In this document: positions 1,392-27,193 of the stretch, one piece after another
Position numbering within the stretch: position 1 is the stretch's first letter
How the letters are laid out: each line of letters begins with the position of its first letter
Source: a virus
Length of the DNA: 28,406 bases
Reading direction: 5' to 3' (one strand)
IMG/VR virus record: IMGVR_UViG_3300043331_002127
Coordinates: 1 to 28,406 of that record
Notes under the pieces: model-generated
The model's input: the letters and a program-made list of their open reading frames with translations, nothing else
Told to the model about the DNA's origin: nothing
The model's database searches: none
Program-made: the position numbers and the translations under genes

Positions 1392-1676
1392 CTAGAGGAA
1401 GCGGGCCGCACACTGGGCGAGCGCTGCATACGCCGCATCAATCGACGTTTTCACCGTGGAGAGCGCAAACATGGCGTCGTCGATCGTCGTTTTTTGCAGG
1501 CCGCTGAGTTCTGGCAGCTCATCAAGTTCTGTTTGGTCTAACGTTTCTTTCACACCACCAGCCGCGTTATAGACCTCGTTGAGTGAGGCGAGGCGCGGTT
1601 GCCAGTCCGCCAGAACGTTCTTGGTGAGGGCACAAATCTTGCTTACCGTGTCGTGCTCCAAGGTACTGAGAGCCAT
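1392..1676 (-). CDS. Conserved-looking small helical phage protein, unknown function
   Basis: The product is 94 residues, begins MALSTLEHDTVSK and has a clear ribbon of helices. ATG 1676 is preceded by AAAAGGAAA at a suitable distance. The protein is mildly acidic with no signal peptide, membrane segment or Cys cluster. Its Thr/Ala/Leu pattern (DDAMFALSTVKTSIDAAYAAL) suggests a small helical bundle or coiled coil. It is the last recognisable minus-strand gene beyond the tail fibres, separated from them by two plus-strand genes, so it may be a small virion or lysis-region protein. I do not recognise its family. Confidence 0.7.
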   Translation of the reverse strand: MALSTLEHDTVSKICALTKNVLADWQPRLASLNEVYNAAGGVKETLDQTELDELPELSGLQKTTIDDAMFALSTVKTSIDAAYAALAQCAARFL

Positions 1677-1688
1677 GGTGATTTCCTT

Positions 1689-1725
1689 TTGTGTACGTAT
1701 AACGACTATGGTAAAATGCCCCTAT
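1689..1725 (+). promoter_or_regulatory. Promoter for the HNH gene at 1803
   Basis: An extended -10 TGG-TAAAAT (hexamer 1712-1717) has TTGTGT 17 bases upstream (1689-1694). CTAT follows at 1722-1725, where transcription should start. The pattern GGTAnAnTnnnnCTAT recurs at 2479 and 14251. Confidence 0.55.
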
Positions 1726-1733
1726 CAATAACA

Positions 1734-1766
1734 AACCCCAACAGTGTTGCAAGCACCGCTGGGGTT
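1734..1766 (+). repeat. Inverted repeat (hairpin) in the HNH gene leader
   Basis: AACCCCA (1734-1740) pairs with TGGGGTT (1760-1766), with an inner GTG/CAC pair around a 7-base loop. No T-tract follows on the plus strand. It would lie in the 5' untranslated region of the HNH gene. Read leftwards it is followed by TTGTTATT, so a weak leftward terminator is possible. Confidence 0.45.
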
Positions 1767-1802
1767 CTGACCATCCCACTCTGCATTGGAGGTGCAGGCG
1801 TT

Positions 1803-2456
1803 ATGGCTAGCAATCAAGATACTCTGTGTGCATGCGGTTGCCAACAAATTGTTTCCCCAGGGAAAACCTGGAAACAAAACCATCGGCAACGACTCTTTCC
1901 GCCCCATCCCCCTGTTCGTCCTCTCCTTGAACGCTTCTGGGCAAAGGTGGTCAAGACAGAAACCTGCTGGCTCTGGGGTGGTTCTGCCATTCCTCGCAGG
2001 TATGGCATTCTCTGGGAGAATAAAAAACCTGTTTTTGCGCATCGTTTTTCGTATGAATTGCATTATGGCCCTATCCCTGATGGTCTCTGGTGTCTCCACC
2101 ACTGTGATACGCCTTCCTGCGTGCGTCCTGAGCATCTCTTCCTCGGCACGAATAGCGATAATATGCGTGACGCTGGGGCAAAAGGCCGTATGGGAGCACA
2201 ACGTGATCCCTTTGGTTTCAGTCAAAGAATCCAGGATTCCTTACGCCTTCATCCAGAAAGACGCGCCCGAGGAGCACGTATTCACACAGCAAAACTGACA
2301 GAGGCACAGGTACGAGACATTCGGCATATCTATGCACGTGGGGACATCTCGTATGCAGCACTCGCACGGATGTTTGGTGTCAGCCAGCAGCACGTCAGTG
2401 CTATCGTCAAACGCCGCCTCTGGCGTTATCTCGAAGACGAAGAGCATCTGTCGTAG
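1803..2456 (+). CDS. HNH homing endonuclease with C-terminal helix-turn-helix
   Basis: The 217-residue product starts at ATG 1803 with GGAGG about 10 bases upstream. Residues 8-13 form a CACGC zinc knuckle. Residues 53-122 hold the HNH nuclease core: CWLWGG, AHRFSYE, then HHCDTPSCVRPEHLFLGT and the NMRDA tail typical of HNH_3-type homing endonucleases (metal-binding HH at 99-100, Asn/Asp in the following helix). The C-terminus (about 175-212) reads as a DNA-binding helix-turn-helix (LTEAQVRDIR, YAALARMFGVSQQHVSAI). It should make a site-specific DNA break that spreads its own gene. It is freestanding, with its own promoter and a leader hairpin, on the strand opposite the morphogenesis genes. 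Confidence 0.9.
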   Translation: MASNQDTLCACGCQQIVSPGKTWKQNHRQRLFPPHPPVRPLLERFWAKVVKTETCWLWGGSAIPRRYGILWENKKPVFAHRFSYELHYGPIPDGLWCLHHCDTPSCVRPEHLFLGTNSDNMRDAGAKGRMGAQRDPFGFSQRIQDSLRLHPERRARGARIHTAKLTEAQVRDIRHIYARGDISYAALARMFGVSQQHVSAIVKRRLWRYLEDEEHLS

Positions 2457-2473: not shown

Positions 2474-2494
2474 TTTTTGGTAGAATGATGCTAT
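2474..2494 (+). promoter_or_regulatory. Extended -10 promoter for the 2595 gene
   Basis: TTTTTGGTAGAAT contains TG-G-TAGAAT (hexamer 2481-2486), an extended -10, followed by CTAT at 2491-2494. No convincing -35 is visible. The first nine bases and the CTAT spacing match the element at 14246-14266. Confidence 0.55.
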
Positions 2495-2505
2495 AGTCTC
2501 ATGCC

Positions 2506-2591
2506 GACGGTAGGGCAGGGGCGGGTCGCTCCCGTCCAGACACCCCCTGCCGGTGTCGGCCCTATCGTCAACAACCTGGCAGGGAGGTTGT
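2506..2591 (+). ncRNA. Structured 5' leader RNA, copy 1
   Basis: The predicted fold has an outer stem 2506-2515/2560-2569 (10 pairs, one G-U). It encloses arm 1, with CAGGGG/CCCCTG (2516-2521/2544-2549) capped by CGGG/CCCG, and arm 2, CCG-GTGT-CGG (2550-2559), giving a three-way junction. A separate hairpin, ACAACCT/AGGTTGT (2571-2577/2585-2591), encloses the ribosome-binding site AGGGAGG. Its loop GGCAGGG can also pair with CCCTGCC at 2545-2551. The tip GCGGGTCGCTCCCG (2521-2534) matches 13 of 14 bases at 14286-14299. Pairings were found by eye; covariation is untested. Confidence 0.5.
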
Positions 2592-2594
2592 CCT

Positions 2595-12814: not shown

Positions 12815-14235
12815 CAACCTACCTCCAGGTATGCGCCTAATAGTGCTATCTTTACCGGGTCACTCACCGTCACCTCAAACGCCAGTTGCCGGTGCTGCCC
12901 CAGGCTGTACCACACGGCCTGACGTTGCGTCTCCCCGATCTTCCCCAGCGAACGCCAGCGCCCCTGCCCCCACGAGTGGCCGCCATCGGCACTGACGCGC
13001 AGCATGGCCTGCGGATCACTGCCAGGCACCACCCCGCCGTCGAGGCCTACACCCATCTCCGCCTCCAGACGAAACTGGTGGTAGCGCAGACGTTTTTGTT
13101 CGCTGCGGACGTGCGGGCTGGTGCGGCGACAGAGCCGTGGAGCCGTGCCATACTTATGATACAAAATGTCCCAGATATACAAGGCGCCAGTCGTCCTATC
13201 GCCCCAGAGATGTTCCCCAAACGCGCTACAGTGGGTATTGCTCGGGTAGTTGCTCAAGGTGCCATCTGCCGTGAGGCTCGGCCACTCGGCCCAGGCCTGG
13301 GTGGCGATGTCAAAACTCCAGGTCTGGCCGCCGCTCGGGAAATCCCAGGTCACCCACCCGTGGCCGCCATGCCGGGCGGTCGTAATCACCGCATCACTCA
13401 CGGTGGCCATCCCCGCCATGGCACTCTCCACCGCGTGCGTCGAGATGCGCACCGGCTGATAGCCCTGGACTGTCCACATGGGGCCTTCGCCACGCGGCGA
13501 ACCGCCCAGCCAGAACAGGGTATTATCGAGCGCATCGACACTCCACGGCGTCTCAATGCCCTGCTCGATGAAGACGTTCTGCATACGGGCAAAGGGATTG
13601 AGGCTGTCGCCTGTGCTCATCCAGACCTCTATGGATTGACTACCAAACACCCATAACTCTCGATGGTCAGCCACAATGGTCACGAGATTATCTGGTCTGC
13701 CTTCTGCGGAATAGAAAGACAACGCCGGCCAGGTCAGCGCGTCGAGTAAGTTCGAATAGTAAAACCGCCTGCTCCCTGGTTGGTTACTAAGCAGATACCC
13801 GTCAAGGTAGGCCATCTGCCCAAAGGGCTGCGGCCCTGTCGTCGGGAGCGTCGTCAGGACATTGGTCGTCAGATCAAACGCATACCCGACGCCTTCAACA
13901 GACAAGACGACGTGAATACCATTGTCCGCGAACGAAACGGGGTTCGTGCCTGTCGTAATGGTCCCACGGGACAAAAAGCTCCAACCAGAAAACAGCTCGT
14001 ACAAGGTCGTCGAGGTTGCGGCAAAGACACGGCCTACACTTGATTCGTAGAGTCCGCGCACGGGGCCGCTCGGGAGTTGTGCGACTTGCCTAAGCCCTGG
14101 CATTGAGTACAAAACATACCGTTTTCTATCAGTCTCGACCTGTTCGACATACATGTTATACAATTTGTCACAGGCGGCATTAGGAGACCTGGTAGTACCA
14201 GAAGGACCGACGAAACCAGCCAATTCAGGTGCCAT
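12814..14235 (-). CDS. P22 gp10-like packaged DNA stabilisation / tail protein
   Basis: The 473-residue product starts at ATG 14235 (AAAGGG upstream). It begins with the pattern of P22 gp10-type tail accessory factors: AGFVGPSGTTRSPNAACDKLYNMYVE, then a chain of beta repeats (VRGLYESSVGRVFAAT, DGYLLSNQPGSRRFYYSN, VADHRELWVFGSQSIEVW, GIETPWSVDALDNTLFWLGG), and a jelly-like C-terminus with LRVSADGGHSWG. In P22, gp10 closes the portal channel with gp4 and gp26. The length (P22 gp10 is about 470) fits. It is the first minus-strand gene after the plus-strand pair 14362-14870, with divergent promoters between. Confidence 0.9.
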   Translation of the reverse strand: MAPELAGFVGPSGTTRSPNAACDKLYNMYVEQVETDRKRYVLYSMPGLRQVAQLPSGPVRGLYESSVGRVFAATSTTLYELFSGWSFLSRGTITTGTNPVSFADNGIHVVLSVEGVGYAFDLTTNVLTTLPTTGPQPFGQMAYLDGYLLSNQPGSRRFYYSNLLDALTWPALSFYSAEGRPDNLVTIVADHRELWVFGSQSIEVWMSTGDSLNPFARMQNVFIEQGIETPWSVDALDNTLFWLGGSPRGEGPMWTVQGYQPVRISTHAVESAMAGMATVSDAVITTARHGGHGWVTWDFPSGGQTWSFDIATQAWAEWPSLTADGTLSNYPSNTHCSAFGEHLWGDRTTGALYIWDILYHKYGTAPRLCRRTSPHVRSEQKRLRYHQFRLEAEMGVGLDGGVVPGSDPQAMLRVSADGGHSWGQGRWRSLGKIGETQRQAVWYSLGQHRQLAFEVTVSDPVKIALLGAYLEVG

Positions 14236-14245
14236 GCGGCTGCCC

Positions 14246-14269
14246 TTTTTGGTATACTTGCTCTATACT
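14246..14269 (+). promoter_or_regulatory. Extended -10 promoter for the 14362 operon
   Basis: TTTTTGG-TATACT has an extended -10 (hexamer 14253-14258) with CTAT at 14263-14266. A second TATACT lies at 14264-14269, 11 bases on. It matches the elements at 2474 and 1709 in pattern GGTAnAnTnnnnCTAT. No clear -35 is seen. Confidence 0.55.
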
Positions 14270-14275
14270 GTGCTT

Positions 14276-14354
14276 TGACCAGGTAGCGGGTCGCGCCCGC
14301 TCGTAAGGTTGAAGCCTCTACTTTAACGCCTGGTCATTACGACCGTAGAGGAGG
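14276..14354 (+). ncRNA. Structured 5' leader RNA, copy 2
   Basis: The predicted fold has an outer stem TGACCAGG/CCTGGTCA (14276-14283/14329-14336). It encloses arm 1, AGCGGG-TCGCG-CCCGCT (14285-14301), and arm 2, GTTGAAG-CCTCTA-CTTTAAC (14308-14327). This is a three-way junction like copy 1. The arm 2 loop CCTCTA is complementary to TAGAGG (14346-14351), the first part of the ribosome-binding site AGAGGAGG, so a pseudoknot could block translation. The outer stem ends 26 bases before the ATG, as in copy 1. Confidence 0.5.
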
Positions 14355-14361
14355 CGTCATC

Positions 14362-14640
14362 ATGCCCCGCAAACACGTCCCATCCTGCTGGCAACTCGTC
14401 CCTGCTCCCGCCCCCGAGCCTGCACCTGTCATGCTGACTGATGTCGAACTGGCAGAGGTGAACACCTTGTATGCACCCCTTGATGCCATCCTCGACCAGT
14501 ACATTGATGATTCCCCCGAGTATCCCTACGACACGATCCTCGAAGCCCTGGCACGCCTGACCGACTACTACGAGGGCATGCAAGCCTACATCGATGCCGA
14601 AATCGCGAAGGACATCGCCGCCGAGGAGGCCGACGCATGA
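14362..14640 (+). CDS. Small acidic helical protein, unknown
   Basis: The 92-residue product starts at ATG 14362, 7 bases after AGAGGAGG. The N-terminus is Pro-rich (PAPAPEPAPVM), followed by an acidic helical part with Tyr/Asp/Glu (EVNTLYAPLDAILDQYIDDS, EALARLTDYYEGMQAYIDAE) and a short acidic end. There is no membrane segment. Its stop (TGA 14638-14640) overlaps the next start (ATG 14637) as ATGA, so the two are translationally coupled. It sits alone among minus-strand morphogenesis genes with its own promoter and leader, and so looks like a moron. No family is recognised. Confidence 0.7.
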   Translation: MPRKHVPSCWQLVPAPAPEPAPVMLTDVELAEVNTLYAPLDAILDQYIDDSPEYPYDTILEALARLTDYYEGMQAYIDAEIAKDIAAEEADA

Positions 14641-14870
14641 GCCTCATGAACGTGGAAGTCTACGATGCCCTCAAAGCCGCCGGGACCCCGGAACATGAAG
14701 CCCGCCAGGCGGCCATCGAACTGGCCACGATGGGCGGTCTCCTCCTGACCCTGGCGGAGCGGGTCAACGGGGTGGATAGCAAGCTCAACCTCGTGATCGG
14801 CGTCATGCTGGTCGGCTTTGCCGCGATCGGCGCCGCCCTGTGGCAAATCTTCCTGCGCTTGCCGCGTTAA
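14637..14870 (+). CDS. DUF1640-like coiled-coil protein with C-terminal membrane anchor
   Basis: The 77-residue product starts at ATG 14637, coupled to the previous gene. It has the layout of DUF1640-type (CCDC90-like) small proteins: an early VYDALKAAGTPEHEARQAA helix, a predicted coiled coil (LTLAERVNGVDSKLN) and one C-terminal transmembrane helix (VIGVMLVGFAAIGAALWQIF), ending LRLPR. Such proteins occur in phages and bacteria with no settled role. The stop overlaps the stop of the convergent gp4-like gene by 4 bases. Confidence 0.75.
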   Translation: MSLMNVEVYDALKAAGTPEHEARQAAIELATMGGLLLTLAERVNGVDSKLNLVIGVMLVGFAAIGAALWQIFLRLPR

Positions 14871-15592
14871 GGCTCTCCCCGGTAAAACGCTGCCAGCCGT
14901 GACTGCGCTGGCGCTCCCCCTGGCGACAGGGACAGGCGCCCGCGCGGCATGTTCACCGGCGCCAGGTCGTGCTTCGTCTGCACCGCCGTCCGCAGCACCG
15001 TCGGCGACGGTTCCACGGCGTATTCCGGCGCTAACTCCACCGCCAGGTTATAGCTCATCAGGCGCAGGTACCCGTTGGGCCACGACAGCACCGCGTCCCA
15101 GTGCGTGTACTGCGGCTGCTGCGGCCAGGGCAGGAGCTGGAGCGTGTGGCTCGTGCCCTGCGGCACAGGCCAGACGTGGAGCGTTTTGACGGGCTGGCTG
15201 TCCTCCAGATAGACGTACTCGGGGTACGTACTCGCCATGGCCTTCTCGCTCACGAGCGTCTCATACCGCGCCTGATCCAGGATGCCGATCTCCCAATCAT
15301 CCGCACCCACCGTGAGCAGGCACAGCTCCAGCCGCACCGGGGGTACGCCGATGATGTCACACGGCGGGTCAGTGACACCCCACGAGTATTGACCTTTCCC
15401 TGGAACGAGTGGCAGTGGCACCTTCGGCCTGGTCCAGGCGAGAAGCCGCGAGGTGCTCCACGCATCGAGCAGGCTGTTCAGGCCCTCCAGGGCACGCTGC
15501 GCCATATCGGCGTGGATCGGCTGCTCCGCGGCCGCGACGCCTAACAGGCGCAGTGCTGTCGTGCAGGGCTGTCTCGCCGCAATGTCTGGCAT
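14867..15592 (-). CDS. P22 gp4-like tail accessory / head-tail connector protein
   Basis: The 241-residue product starts at ATG 15592, directly after the previous stop (TAGCATG). The N-terminal helices (ALRLLGVAAAEQP, DMAQRALEGLNSLLDAWS) followed by PLVPGKGQYSWG, PPVRLELC, YETLVSEKAM, YPEYVYLEDSQPVKTLHVWPVP and SYNLAVELAPEY form the standard pattern of P22 gp4 (tail accessory factor). gp4 is the first protein to bind the portal after packaging. P22 gp4 is about 166 residues, so this one is longer, mostly in the C-terminus. In P22 gp4 also has muralytic activity; no such motif can be claimed here. Confidence 0.85.
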   Translation of the reverse strand: MPDIAARQPCTTALRLLGVAAAEQPIHADMAQRALEGLNSLLDAWSTSRLLAWTRPKVPLPLVPGKGQYSWGVTDPPCDIIGVPPVRLELCLLTVGADDWEIGILDQARYETLVSEKAMASTYPEYVYLEDSQPVKTLHVWPVPQGTSHTLQLLPWPQQPQYTHWDAVLSWPNGYLRLMSYNLAVELAPEYAVEPSPTVLRTAVQTKHDLAPVNMPRGRLSLSPGGAPAQSRLAAFYRGEP

Positions 15593-16396: not shown

Positions 16397-16588
16397 CTAC
16401 CTCCGGCTGCGGCGCGTCTCGTCACCGCTCGCGGGCTCGCTAGCCTTGGCGGCCGCATCAGCCGCCTCCGCCGGGCTCTCGAACCACTGCCCGGCCTCGA
16501 GGGCGCGCAGCTCCTCCACCGTGGTGATAATGCGCGACTGCCCACTGACGTGGTAGCGCCAGGAGGGCAGGACTGGGGTGTCAGGCAT
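16397..16588 (-). CDS. Small phage protein with WYHP-like motif, unknown
   Basis: The 63-residue product starts at ATG 16588, which overlaps the end of the GIY-YIG gene as ATGCCTGA. It has the pattern SWRYHVSGQSRIITTVEELRAL followed by GQWFESPAEAADAA and a charged, Ala/Ser-rich tail. Small phage proteins with 'WRYH...EE..AL...W..SPAE' are common near coat genes, as I recall, and are annotated hypothetical. Position suggests a structural accessory role. Confidence 0.65.
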   Translation of the reverse strand: MPDTPVLPSWRYHVSGQSRIITTVEELRALEAGQWFESPAEAADAAAKASEPASGDETRRSRR

Positions 16589-17393
16589 GGGATTCCTCCT
16601 CTAGGGGGACATAGCGGGCGTCCCCGCGTTTAATCATGGCGCGAATCGTGGGCCGTGAGATGCCGGTGATCTTATGACACGCCATGACCGACTCGTAGAC
16701 CACTCCACCAAGCTCAACCCGATGTCGCCCAGGATGTAACTTCCCCTTCGTGATGTCATGCCAGGGAATGCCTTTGTTCCAGGCTTTGCGGCCTTTACGG
16801 GACAGGGACATGGCCAGCCGCGTCTCTGGGGTATGCGTGTGCCCACGCAATTTTGCTTTGTGCTCTTCACTGAGCGACTTGCCTTGATGTGCAGCAGCGA
16901 TCTTTGCTTTCGTGTCCTCACTATGCTTGCGCCCAACAAAGGGGTGTCCAACTGCGGCATGTCTGGCCTTTGCTTTCTCGCTAATCTTGGCCTTGGTTGC
17001 CTCACTCTGCGTGCGTCCAAGCATAGAGTGTCCATAGGTATCCCAATGCGCCTTGACCTTCTCGCCCATCAGCTTGCGTGCTTCTGGGCCATGCTTGTGT
17101 TCAAGGATAGGATCACCCCCAGGGGTACGGTTATACCCATGCGGGCAAAGCGTATTGAGTTCCGCAATCCAGTATTGTTCCATCAGGTACAGCTTCTCAA
17201 GCGTATCTGTTTGCCCAAGGACACGAAGCGTAAAGTTCTCTGTCCCATGCTTATGAATCGCTTGCGTGATGAGCCTGCTGGTCTTTGATGGCCCACTATG
17301 GGTATGCGAGCGTATGCGCTTCCATAAGTTTTGGCGCGTAATGCCCACATAGCCACGATCCGTGATAGTATTCCAGAGTAGATAGCAGTACAT
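16581..17393 (-). CDS. GIY-YIG homing endonuclease with NUMOD repeats
   Basis: The 270-residue product starts at ATG 17393, 5 bases after GGAGG; a TTG four codons earlier is less likely. Residues 1-95 form a GIY-YIG nuclease: YLLWN, GYVGIT, the Arg-bearing helix KRIRSHTH and the Glu in LMEQYWI, with NRTPGGD as the usual closing motif. Residues 100-215 hold repeated NUMOD3-type DNA-binding motifs (GRTQSEATKAKISEKAKARH, GRKHSEDTKAKIAAAHQGK, SEEHKAKLRG). The C-terminus (VYESVMACHKITGISRPTIRAMI) is an IENR1/NUMOD1-like helix-turn-helix. It is freestanding between the coat gene and a small structural gene, with its own promoter. It should cut a coat-region site in competing phages. Confidence 0.92.
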   Translation of the reverse strand: MYCYLLWNTITDRGYVGITRQNLWKRIRSHTHSGPSKTSRLITQAIHKHGTENFTLRVLGQTDTLEKLYLMEQYWIAELNTLCPHGYNRTPGGDPILEHKHGPEARKLMGEKVKAHWDTYGHSMLGRTQSEATKAKISEKAKARHAAVGHPFVGRKHSEDTKAKIAAAHQGKSLSEEHKAKLRGHTHTPETRLAMSLSRKGRKAWNKGIPWHDITKGKLHPGRHRVELGGVVYESVMACHKITGISRPTIRAMIKRGDARYVPLEEESHA

Positions 17394-17434
17394 GCGGTCC
17401 TCCAATAGTGTTAGGCGACAATATTGTTGGACTA

Positions 17435-19851: not shown

Positions 19852-20397
19852 TTAATCGGCGGCAGCGTCCTCCTCGGGGAGCAAGAGAAAGGGCTGCACG
19901 GGCGTGAGCACATCACGGTCCTTCTTCCGGCTGTTACAGGAGAGACAGGCTGGCACAATATTCGCCAGGGTATGACTGCCACCTTTGGAAAGCGGAATAA
20001 TGTGATCCTGCGTAAGCTGCTTAAAGGGAAATTTCTTGTGACAGTACGCACACCGATAGCCCGCAGCTTTGCAGAGGGCACGCCATTGCTTCGCCGTAAA
20101 ATTGTTAATGGGGGCTGCGGCCTTACGGGCACGTCGGCGCGCATCTCTCTCCCGAACCTTGTCAGGGTTATTTCTACGCCATTTCTGAAAGGCTGCTCGC
20201 AGCTGTGGCCTTTTCCCCCGTCTCTTCTGAGAAGCTCGCTGCTGTTGAGCACGCACCTTTTCAGGATTCTCGGTTCTCCACCGCTGAAGGGCCAGTCGCC
20301 TCTTCGCACGGTTCTTGGCGCGATAGCGGGCACTGTACTTGCGGTCACGTACTTTGCGTACTTCCGGGGAGAGTTCGGGTATACTTTCATCAGCCAT
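19852..20397 (-). CDS. HNH endonuclease with basic helical N-terminus
   Basis: The 181-residue product starts at ATG 20397, 8 bases after AGAGAGG. Residues 15-95 are very basic repeated helices (RYRAKNRAKRRLALQRW and LRAAFQKWRRNNPDKVRER), likely gripping DNA. Residues 101-160 form a compact HNH domain: YRCAYCHKK, QDHIIPLSKGGSHTLANIVPACLSCN. CxxC pairs at 116/119 and 151/154 bind structural zinc, and D131-H132 and N146 form the active site. It lies between the small portal-linked gene and the scaffold gene, with its own -10-like element and leader hairpin, so it is probably a freestanding homing endonuclease. Confidence 0.9.
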   Translation of the reverse strand: MADESIPELSPEVRKVRDRKYSARYRAKNRAKRRLALQRWRTENPEKVRAQQQRASQKRRGKRPQLRAAFQKWRRNNPDKVRERDARRRARKAAAPINNFTAKQWRALCKAAGYRCAYCHKKFPFKQLTQDHIIPLSKGGSHTLANIVPACLSCNSRKKDRDVLTPVQPFLLLPEEDAAAD

Positions 20398-20433
20398 GGC
20401 GATACCTCTCTGACAGGTTCGTTGTGGTTAGGG

Positions 20434-20475
20434 GCATACGAGTGAATCAGACTCGTATGCTCTGCCTTAAGTATA
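20434..20475 (-). promoter_or_regulatory. Candidate promoter and leader hairpin for the HNH gene at 19852
   Basis: On the minus strand GGTATACT (hexamer at 20470-20475) precedes a perfect 10-bp inverted repeat GCATACGAGT...ACTCGTATGC (arms 20434-20443 and 20451-20460, 7-base loop). No good -35 is visible. The hairpin has no T-tract after it and would be near the 5' end of the transcript. Confidence 0.45.
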
Positions 20476-20499
20476 CCCCATTTCATACTATTCCCGCCA

Positions 20500-24951: not shown

Positions 24952-25821
24952 CTAGTCTGCCACTGCGGGCACAGGCACAGGATCAGGCAAGGCCGCATAC
25001 AATTCCTCAGTCGCAATCAAGCCTCGATGGGCCATGGCATGATGGTTCGGGCACAACGTAATCAGATTCCCCAGACTGTTATTGCCCCCACGCGCTTTAT
25101 GGACGATGTGATGCACATGCACCACGACATCAAAACCGCACAGGCGACATCTCGCGCCATCCCGTTGCAGAGCCATGGGCTTCGGTGAACTGCGTGCGCC
25201 ACTAAGTTTGTTGGCAACGATGATGTAGCGACAGCGTTTGGAACAGGCCGGCAAACTTCCTTTGTCCTGCAACTGATACGGGGAGCGATACACCATCGTG
25301 CCACAGGCTGCGCACGGAATCGGGATACGCTTCCGCTCATTGGGCGGATTGATCGTAAGCCAGACGGTTCGACAGGCCGTGCTACAGAGCTTCGTGCGAC
25401 TGGACGCCGCTTTGAACCTGCGGCCACACACCGCACAGGGGACCTGCGGACGGCGGATGTCCCTGTAGGTATCGTTGTGCCCAGACACGTACTCGTACAC
25501 CTGCCCAGCGGGGCCATATTTACGCCGATAGCGTCCACAGCCACAGGCGCACAGGATGCGCGTCTGCTCCCGACACGGCTCACAGACCCCTCGCAAGAGT
25601 GGACGCTCAAACGGTGTCCCACATTCACGGCAATGCGTCGCCGCGAGGGTCTGTCTGAGATGGCGATGCATGAGGCAGGTATGTGCGTGCGGGCCAATGG
25701 GCTCCACACAGCCATCAATCGGGCAGAGGCGCTTACTGTTCTGGGCGCGGCACTGGTCGCACAGAGGGCTCGTAACCCGCGTATGCTCCTTCCCGCACTG
25801 CCCACAAAATCTGGATGCCAT
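24952..25821 (-). CDS. HNH endonuclease with many zinc-ribbon modules
   Basis: The 289-residue product starts at ATG 25821 with GGAG 6 bases upstream; a second ATG four codons earlier has no SD. Residues 1-205 hold at least six Cys-pair modules: CGQC/CDQC, CPIDGC/CLMH, CREC/CEPC, CACGCG with a closing VSGHN, CAVC/CSTAC and CAAC/CSKRC. Residues 220-265 form the HNH nuclease: ARCRLCGFDVVVHVHHIVHKARGGNNSLGNLITLCPNHH (His237-His238 active, Cys225/228 and Cys257 zinc). It is a probable homing endonuclease. The CACGCG...GHN module is shared with the 1803 HNH protein. It lies between the ParB-like remnant and terS. Confidence 0.9.
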   Translation of the reverse strand: MASRFCGQCGKEHTRVTSPLCDQCRAQNSKRLCPIDGCVEPIGPHAHTCLMHRHLRQTLAATHCRECGTPFERPLLRGVCEPCREQTRILCACGCGRYRRKYGPAGQVYEYVSGHNDTYRDIRRPQVPCAVCGRRFKAASSRTKLCSTACRTVWLTINPPNERKRIPIPCAACGTMVYRSPYQLQDKGSLPACSKRCRYIIVANKLSGARSSPKPMALQRDGARCRLCGFDVVVHVHHIVHKARGGNNSLGNLITLCPNHHAMAHRGLIATEELYAALPDPVPVPAVAD

Positions 25822-25856
25822 AGTTGTCTCCATAGAAGTAGGTCAGAGATAACTAT

Positions 25857-26359: not shown

Positions 26360-26543
26360 GGCTGCCACCATTGGGGTTGCCATTGCGGCGCTGGCGGAGG
26401 ACCTCACGGATCAGCACTTCGAGGCGGCCATTGATCTGGCGCTGCTCATCGGTGAACTCAACCAATTTGTCGTAGCTCTCACTGATTTTGTCGAGCACGG
26501 CGGCCATGCGCAGCATCAGGGCATCGTAGGCGTCACTGTCCAT
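26352..26543 (-). CDS. Small coiled-coil protein ending in GGSHA
   Basis: The 63-residue product probably starts at ATG 26543 (GAGGTG 5 bases upstream), overlapping the HNH stop by 11 bases; an ATG at 26558 is possible. It begins MDSDAYDALMLRM and is nearly all amphipathic helix (VLDKISESYDKLVEFTDEQ, RLEVLIREVLRQRRN), then a Gly/Asn-rich end. It closely matches the build of the 5254 protein (MDLSEYD... and an ending in SGH). The neighbouring membrane-protein gene downstream completes a repeated gene pair. Function unknown. Confidence 0.7.
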   Translation of the reverse strand: MDSDAYDALMLRMAAVLDKISESYDKLVEFTDEQRQINGRLEVLIREVLRQRRNGNPNGGSHA

Positions 26544-26979
26544 GGGACACCTCGTCACCAGGCATGAAGGTATCTAATGGCACGTGTAGGGCACGCGCAA
26601 TACGCCGCTGTTCTCGTGCATCACGGACATTGTCCGCAATCGTCCCCAGGAAAAGATGAGCAGGGTTGCAGCAGGATTTGTTATTGCATCGATGCATCAC
26701 CACAAAAGGCGTCCTGCACCGACGGACATGATAGTTCGGAAAGAAGAGACATCCCGCGCCAGCCGCCCATTCAAGCACGAAGCGATGCGCAAGGAGATGC
26801 ACCACACGAGGATAGTGCTGGAGACGGAAGGCAAAACTGCCATACCCATCCGTATCACGCCTCCCTTCCCACGGCCAACAACAGCGTGGGCACGGATGCC
26901 GATGCCTACATCGCGCAACCATCAGCCAAAAACGGGCAACCACATCCTCCATTGTTTCGGCTGGACGATGCTTAGGCAT
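26533..26979 (-). CDS. HNH homing endonuclease within the repressor operon
   Basis: The 148-residue product starts at ATG 26979, 6 bases after GAGGAGG; an ATG two codons earlier abuts the SD and is unlikely. The early motif CPRCCWPWEGRRDTDGYG with LLAHRFVLEWAAG, then VVMHRCNNKSCCNPAHLFLGTIADNVRDA (His96, Asn105, His108) is the classic HNH_3 layout also seen in the 1803 protein. It lacks a C-terminal helix-turn-helix. Its start overlaps the regulator's stop by 8 bases, so it is co-translated with the repressor-like gene, an unusual place for a freestanding endonuclease. Confidence 0.88.
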   Translation of the reverse strand: MPKHRPAETMEDVVARFWLMVARCRHRHPCPRCCWPWEGRRDTDGYGSFAFRLQHYPRVVHLLAHRFVLEWAAGAGCLFFPNYHVRRCRTPFVVMHRCNNKSCCNPAHLFLGTIADNVRDAREQRRIARALHVPLDTFMPGDEVSHGQ

Positions 26980-27193
26980 GCACATCCTCCTCGTACATCC
27001 CGCACAGATAGTCGAGCGTGACCCCTAACACTTTGGCCATACGCATCGCCGCAGGCACGGAAGGATACGCGGTTGTTTGCCTCTCCAGACGAGAGACCAC
27101 TCCATGAGGAAGAGCCGCGAGGGTTTCCAACTGACGCACCGACAACCGCTTCTCACGGCGTAAGTGCTGCAGGCGAGTACTAAAGTTCATCAT
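26972..27193 (-). CDS. XRE-family transcription regulator (repressor-like)
   Basis: The 73-residue product starts at ATG 27193 (GGAG 5 bases upstream). It is a single helix-turn-helix of the XRE/Cro type: RLQHLRREKRLSVRQLETLAALPHGVVSRLERQTTAYPSVPAAMRMAKVLGVTLDYLCGMYEED. The recognition helix is HGVVSRLE and the closing LGVTLDYL is typical. With no C-terminal domain it may act as a Cro-like or small CI-like dimer. A sigma-70 promoter lies 40-70 bases upstream, and two identical 15-bp sites in the divergent region are likely operators. The gene heads an operon with HNH, coiled-coil and membrane genes. Confidence 0.9.
   Translation of the reverse strand: MMNFSTRLQHLRREKRLSVRQLETLAALPHGVVSRLERQTTAYPSVPAAMRMAKVLGVTLDYLCGMYEEDVHA

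Follow-up and report, generated by a model that had tools for sequence, protein, structure and literature searches.

A leader RNA with a gene-specific kissing loop at the Shine-Dalgarno sequence precedes unrelated accessory genes of phages

Leader RNAs that hide a Shine-Dalgarno (SD) sequence are a known kind of regulatory element. Phage accessory genes are thought to need control of expression apart from the phage programme, and we know of no shared RNA device for such control. Among described systems, the translational cobalamin (corrinoid) riboswitch forms an L5-L13 kissing loop with the hairpin of the ribosome-binding site (RBS), in which the closed RBS is favoured (PMC10653944). The I-TevI and segB genes of T4 and mobE of Aeh1 carry hairpins that sequester the RBS, and their late transcripts lack part of the fold (PMC2988022). 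The pid gene of P22, a small ORFan, lies in the late region and is transcribed in the opposite direction to its neighbours (PMC3573128). manA and wcaG are structured candidate RNAs of phages and metagenomes, thought to regulate the adjoining genes (PMC2864571).

The leader analysed here resembles the cobalamin riboswitch in that the loop of a junction domain kisses a downstream hairpin, which would favour a closed RBS, but its three-way junction is far smaller, the SD itself lies in the kissed loop, there is no conserved aptamer core, the genes are viral accessory genes and no Rfam family matches. With the leaders of the T4 and Aeh1 homing endonucleases it shares phage endonuclease genes and a structured leader hiding the SD; here, however, a junction and a kissing loop are combined and the predicted promoter lies before the fold, whereas the hairpins of T4 and Aeh1 are opened via promoter placement. 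It differs from manA and wcaG in its genes and phages, and has no Rfam match to either. The window and ten related loci also gave no Rfam match to HEARO, the omega RNA of IscB-type nucleases, and, unlike HEARO, many members of the leader precede genes without an HNH domain. We found no description of the leader fold in the open-access literature; as far as these tools show, neither the fold itself, nor the kissing code that varies from gene to gene, nor the spread of the fold over unrelated accessory genes of phages has been described.

The window, the whole of IMG/VR record IMGVR_UViG_3300043331_002127 (28,406 bp), carries on its minus strand the structural module of a P22-like podovirus (portal, P22-type coat protein, head closure protein, adaptor, and a tail fibre with an S74 chaperone), interrupted by two plus-strand cassettes at 2474-2789 and 14246-14870. 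Its DNA had no match among INPHARED phages, where two leaders used as queries returned only short chance pieces; the best relatives of its portal are about 35% identical, and a scan for tRNA and tmRNA genes found none. Several putative homing endonucleases are scattered between the structural genes of this short record (Table 1).

Table 1. Features of the two cassettes and of related elements (window coordinates unless a record is named)
Feature	Position	Strand	Remarks
Copy 1 promoter-like region	2474-2497	+	TTTTTGGTAGAAT; TATAGT 2492-2497
Copy 1 leader overall	2506-2594	+	Plan as copy 2, other sequences
Copy 1 three-way junction	2506-2569	+	R1 E 6.8e-6 (copy 1 absent from R1); R2 E 3e-7
Copy 1 P1	2506-2516/2559-2569	+	11 bp
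Copy 1 P2	2519-2525/2531-2537	+	Loop UCGCU
Copy 1 P3	2539-2544/2552-2557	+	Loop CCCUGCC 2545-2551
Copy 1 P4	2571-2591	+	ACAACCU/AGGUUGU; loop GGCAGGG 2578-2584; contains SD GGGAGG
Accessory gene of copy 1, P0001	2595-2789	+	64 aa; no family match
Copy 2 promoter-like region	14246-14269	+	TTTTTGGTATACT; extended -10-like TGGTATACT 14250-14258; second TATACT 14264-14269
Copy 2 three-way junction	14277-14335	+	R2 match 14276-14364, E 6e-13; covariation
Copy 2 P1	14277-14284/14328-14335	+	8-bp outer stem
Copy 2 P2	14285-14290/14296-14301	+	Loop UCGCG
Copy 2 J2/3	14302-14307	+	CGUAAG
Copy 2 P3	14308-14314/14321-14327	+	
Copy 2 P3 loop	14315-14320	+	CCUCUA; kissing partner of SD loop; opening of the closing pair would add 14321 (7 bp)
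Copy 2 P4	14339-14357	+	Weak hairpin with SD GAGGAGG 14348-14354
Copy 2 P4 loop	14345-14351	+	(G)UAGAGG; pairs with P3 loop, overlaps SD
Accessory gene 1 of copy 2, P0002	14362-14640	+	92 aa; no Pfam or PHROG match
Accessory gene 2 of copy 2, P0003	14637-14870	+	77 aa; hydrophobic C-terminal stretch; 4-nt overlap with gene 1
Putative homing endonucleases	16581-17405, 19852-20397, 24952-25833, 26533-26985 (-); 1599-2456 (+)		One GIY-YIG, others HNH or HNH-like
Possible reduced relative before HNH gene 19852-20397	20395-20480	-	R2 E 1.3
Members with palindromic P2 loop	L030, L042 (698-797), L132, L155, L070, L071, L004 (4960-5052), L069, L152		

The two cassettes open on the same promoter-like start, as an initial annotation of the DNA had proposed: TTTTTGGTA is present exactly twice in the window, at 2474 and 14246. 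It is the upstream part of the extended -10-like element TGGTATACT, and in copy 2 a second TATACT follows 11 nt further. Fold prediction for copy 2 (14277-14361) gave a three-way junction of helices P1, P2 and P3, then a hairpin, P4, that holds the SD, and the 8-bp outer stem reported earlier is its P1. The claim of a common architecture is also correct, since copy 1 has the same junction and SD hairpin built from different sequences. The complementarity noticed in copy 2 between the loop CCTCTA and TAGAGG (14346-14351) is there and extends to 7 bp (CCTCTAC/GTAGAGG); the equivalent pairing of copy 1, which that annotation lacked, also has 7 bp (CCCUGCC/GGCAGGG).

All that the annotation described is in the sequence, one detail apart. 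The outer stem was said to end exactly 26 bases before the ATG in both copies; when all 11 bp are counted, copy 1 has 25 nt here against 26 nt in copy 2, and several further members have about 20-27 nt. An exact 26 is therefore no family trait. The arm 1 sequence GCGGGTCGCGCCCG at 14286-14299 indeed agrees with its twin at 2521-2534 in 13 of 14 bases, but the match carries no significance by itself (at least two matches in 41 of 100 shuffles, which is chance level), and we rejected it as the only evidence. Nor does the fold of either copy prove the case, since it beats shuffled sequences by a moderate margin only (z -2.1 to -3.7), so relatives were needed.

No family of Rfam 15 matched the window or ten related loci at the gathering threshold; the best match below it had E 0.91, and the leader stretch gave chance-level matches only. 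We searched IMG/VR for homologues of the three accessory proteins, and the leader stands upstream of those found: of P0002 (in L003 and L004), P0003 (L006 and L194) and P0001 (L007). A home-made structure descriptor, which found copy 1 in the window, missed copy 2 and returned chance matches, was replaced by covariance models. The first, R1, was made from four members and recovered the held-out copy 1, L007 and L004 together with a new member in a portal-related record; the second, R2, comprised 13 members. With these models and pattern scans the family reached 22 distinct members, the two copies and 20 more in IMG/VR phage records (mostly fragments), many of the 20 having none of their sequence in the model. 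Members score at least 24.6 bits with R2, against 17.7 bits for the best background in 628 kb of pattern-matched stretches; in those stretches R2 detected a single new member, present in two records (E 9e-10), and every match after it had an E of at least 1.8.

The leader is not a general feature of HNH genes, since among 80 HNH-gene loci it was found with confidence only in L072, which is the L070 member again, and in L132. L074, also before an HNH gene, shows the loop complementarity but fits the model poorly (E 1.1) and is probably a further variant; another leader lies elsewhere in the L073 record. On the minus strand of the window, directly before the start of an HNH gene, one long hairpin (loop CUGAUUC) is followed by an SD hairpin, CCU-GUCAGAG-AGG. 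With only 5 nt of loop complementarity it was rejected as a member; it may be a relative of the leader, reduced and with no clear kissing. A similar arrangement stands before a relative of that HNH gene in L075 (918-981), and this orthologous hairpin, in which no loop complementarity was seen, was likewise rejected. Among 84,980 bacterial and archaeal genomes, one pattern for one leader type gave 10 matches, none of them accepted (two, at R1 E 0.25-0.49, were judged chance), and a model search of three bacterial genomes, with 150 candidates scored in each, was empty. Prophage copies may be compatible with the genome scan, given its single pattern of one leader type.

The kissing pair between the loops of P3 and P4, about 6-7 bp, is kept in all 22 members and is realized by 16 different loop pairs. 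A member's own loops pair over a mean of 6.4 contiguous Watson-Crick bp, compared with 2.8 for swapped loops, and none of 200,000 random re-pairings was as good as the own pairing. For this test the loop boundaries were set by eye on the folds; an automatic version based on windows agrees, and a version with 12 loop pairs also supports the pairing. The models hold no kissing information, yet every accepted member has the kissing pair, while 21 low-scoring matches in the window have at most 5 nt of loop complementarity. With the SD (GG or AG) at the end of the P4 loop, part of the pairing is constrained; the other positions vary freely and in step.

The helices behave in the same way. In an alignment of 21 members, 94.1% of cells, pseudoknot included, are in standard pairs, and 24 of the 30 pairs have changed on both sides. 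The covariation score is 0.653, as opposed to 0.180 for shuffled alignments and at most 0.105 with the partners slid; because the alignment follows the model, the nested helices are favoured, but the kissing pairs were absent from the model. The kissing columns alone, four of which are consistently alignable, score 0.718 against 0.163 (0 of 500 shuffles). The stems thus differ in sequence as a conserved RNA structure would, which had been suggested from the two copies, and this covariation proves the fold where single copies were insufficient: the structure is real. That the two copies merely look alike by chance, as their modest z scores and the insignificant 14-mer would allow, is refuted by the independent members, the covariation and the kissing statistics, and its probability is negligible.

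The leader is about 80-100 nt long. In nearly all members a -10-like box (TATACT, TACAAT or similar) mostly ends 3-9 nt before P1; L132 has no obvious box, and a formal sigma-70 match was obtained only for copy 2. Given this position of the box, the transcript should start at P1, a helix of usually 7-11 bp that commonly has a U.G pair at its end. A 5′ end locked in such a helix could act mainly against 5′-dependent decay, with the burial of the SD a side effect, and the predicted start at the base of P1 and its 7-11 bp in most members would suit an mRNA stabilizer. We regard this as improbable, because it leaves unexplained why a loop 30 nt away matches the SD loop with exact complementarity in 16 different ways, and because a stabilizer is not expected to bury its own SD. 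The same box bears on timing of the T4 kind, in which read-through transcripts would bury the SD and a later promoter inside the hairpin would give an open transcript. Such timing is described for I-TevI, segB and mobE (PMC2988022), and the targets of the present leader include HNH genes; but the recurrent box before P1 implies that transcripts from the own promoter carry the whole fold, and inspection by eye showed no promoter inside it. This explanation is very unlikely.

The P2 loops fall into two main classes. The GGGUCGCUCCC class is found in about half of the members despite differences in their other helices; the second, before genes of HNH or zinc-finger type, consists of loops with self-complementary hexamers of four kinds, and nine such members have perfect 6-nt palindromes (UGAUCA, UGUACA, UAGCUA or UGGCCA). 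To judge from their sequence, the palindromes suggest an operator in the DNA or contact within a dimer. P2 might accordingly be bound, as RNA hairpin or as DNA palindrome, by a protein that sets expression through the lock, for instance a regulator of the phage or the product of the gene itself. Self-complementary hexamers are what a dimer or kissing-dimer contact would lead one to expect, and a T4 intron endonuclease represses its own promoter (PMC2988022). Against this, the GGGUCGCUCCC type is not palindromic and no candidate protein was identified; moreover, protein binding would add to the lock rather than replace it. We consider it a possibility of low probability.

Conserved elements of the junction raise the question of a small-molecule riboswitch, in which the junction would be an aptamer whose ligand makes or breaks the kissing loop controlling the SD. 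The wiring is that of the translational cobalamin riboswitch, with its L5-L13 kissing loop stabilizing the RBS hairpin (PMC10653944), and the P2 loop GGGUCGCUCCC and the CGUAAG of J2/3 are kept in many members with differing helices. A kissing loop with the RBS hairpin is present here, as seen by covariation only; the window and ten loci gave no Rfam cobalamin match and contain no corrinoid aptamer core. Aptamer cores are usually near-invariant at unpaired positions. In this family the P2 loop is of varying type (UCGCU, CUGAUCA, CUGUACA, CUAGCUA, GGCC), J2/3 ranges from CGUAAG-like to a single base, and, the SD and start codon apart, every position free of helices and kissing shows some change, variability that argues against a classical aptamer. 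With no metabolic theme among the downstream genes and no Rfam match, a riboswitch appears unlikely.

The genes behind the leaders are unrelated and encode small proteins of 49-118 aa or HNH endonucleases. Several of the small proteins have a hydrophobic segment or a coiled-coil look, and nearly all are without a family match; the clearest PHROG match among them is that of a 118-aa protein with an N-terminal hydrophobic segment in L039 (5034-5390; phrog_2315, unknown function, E 2e-5). P22-type portals are present in 4 of the 21 records searched, and other records have tape-measure-like or HK97-capsid-like ORFs, as read from the sequence and not by family search.

The earlier proposal that the leaders may form a new RNA family linked with phage morons stands as regards the family, which has relatives and no Rfam match, and in part as regards the morons. 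Both cassettes lie on the plus strand beside minus-strand tail-fibre, head-closure and adaptor genes, and the genes behind the leader change: homologues of P0003, the second gene behind copy 2, directly follow the leader in L006 and L194, and L007 (2809-3189, compared with 2595-2789 in the window) has an extra 57-aa hydrophobic gene between the leader and the P0001 homologue. The pid moron of P22 is likewise a small late-region ORFan of a P22-like phage, read opposite to its neighbours; a shared structured leader is not described for pid in the accessible part of the source. No terminator-like sites were found here at 2400-2900 or 14150-14950, and the leader also precedes HNH endonuclease genes, so that the name 'accessory gene leader' is more apt than 'moron leader'.

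The SD, next to the start codon, is shared between the P4 stem and the kissed loop, half in each; the loop ends 7-12 nt before the codon. P4 alone is worth about -4 to -8.5 kcal/mol, and before any kissing the final AGG is already mostly paired (0.54-1.00). To this the kissing duplex contributes a nominal -4.5 to -16 kcal/mol, in simple duplex values without loop strain. Since the SD is buried, the fold would be expected to repress translation. We propose that it is a cis-acting leader RNA that controls translation of phage accessory genes through this kissing lock (probability about 0.7). Transcription from the cassette's own promoter would start at or within a few nucleotides of the 5′ strand of P1, as the -10-like box suggests, and the three-way junction would present the P3 loop ahead of SD synthesis. 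The emerging SD region would then form P4, with the AGG in the stem and the rest of the site in the loop, and capture of this loop by the P3 loop through about 6-7 Watson-Crick bp would bury the SD and block initiation, making the default state translation that is off or very low. The lock would presumably be opened by a protein, by a ligand or by a change in infection conditions, acting at P2 or the junction or at the kissing loops; neither a releasing factor nor an alternative fold came to light.

In all the two-leader records compared the kissing sequences differ, and cross pairing was weaker than own pairing in all 8 pairs compared, although the leaders of L132 and L155 still share 5 nt of it. 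With a kissing sequence of its own for each leader, the lock most likely acts within its own transcript without cross-reacting. Tentatively, the kissing sequence might serve as the individual address of each gene while P2 and the junction sense a common signal, so that unrelated accessory and homing genes in many phages would be opened together without cross-talk; host state, a phage protein or a metabolite could conceivably be that signal.

One probable translational lock links unrelated accessory genes and homing endonuclease genes in different phages, P22-like and other. The covariance model together with the kissing test gives a handle for finding more such genes, and the freely varying kissing pairs would be a natural source of orthogonal translation switches.
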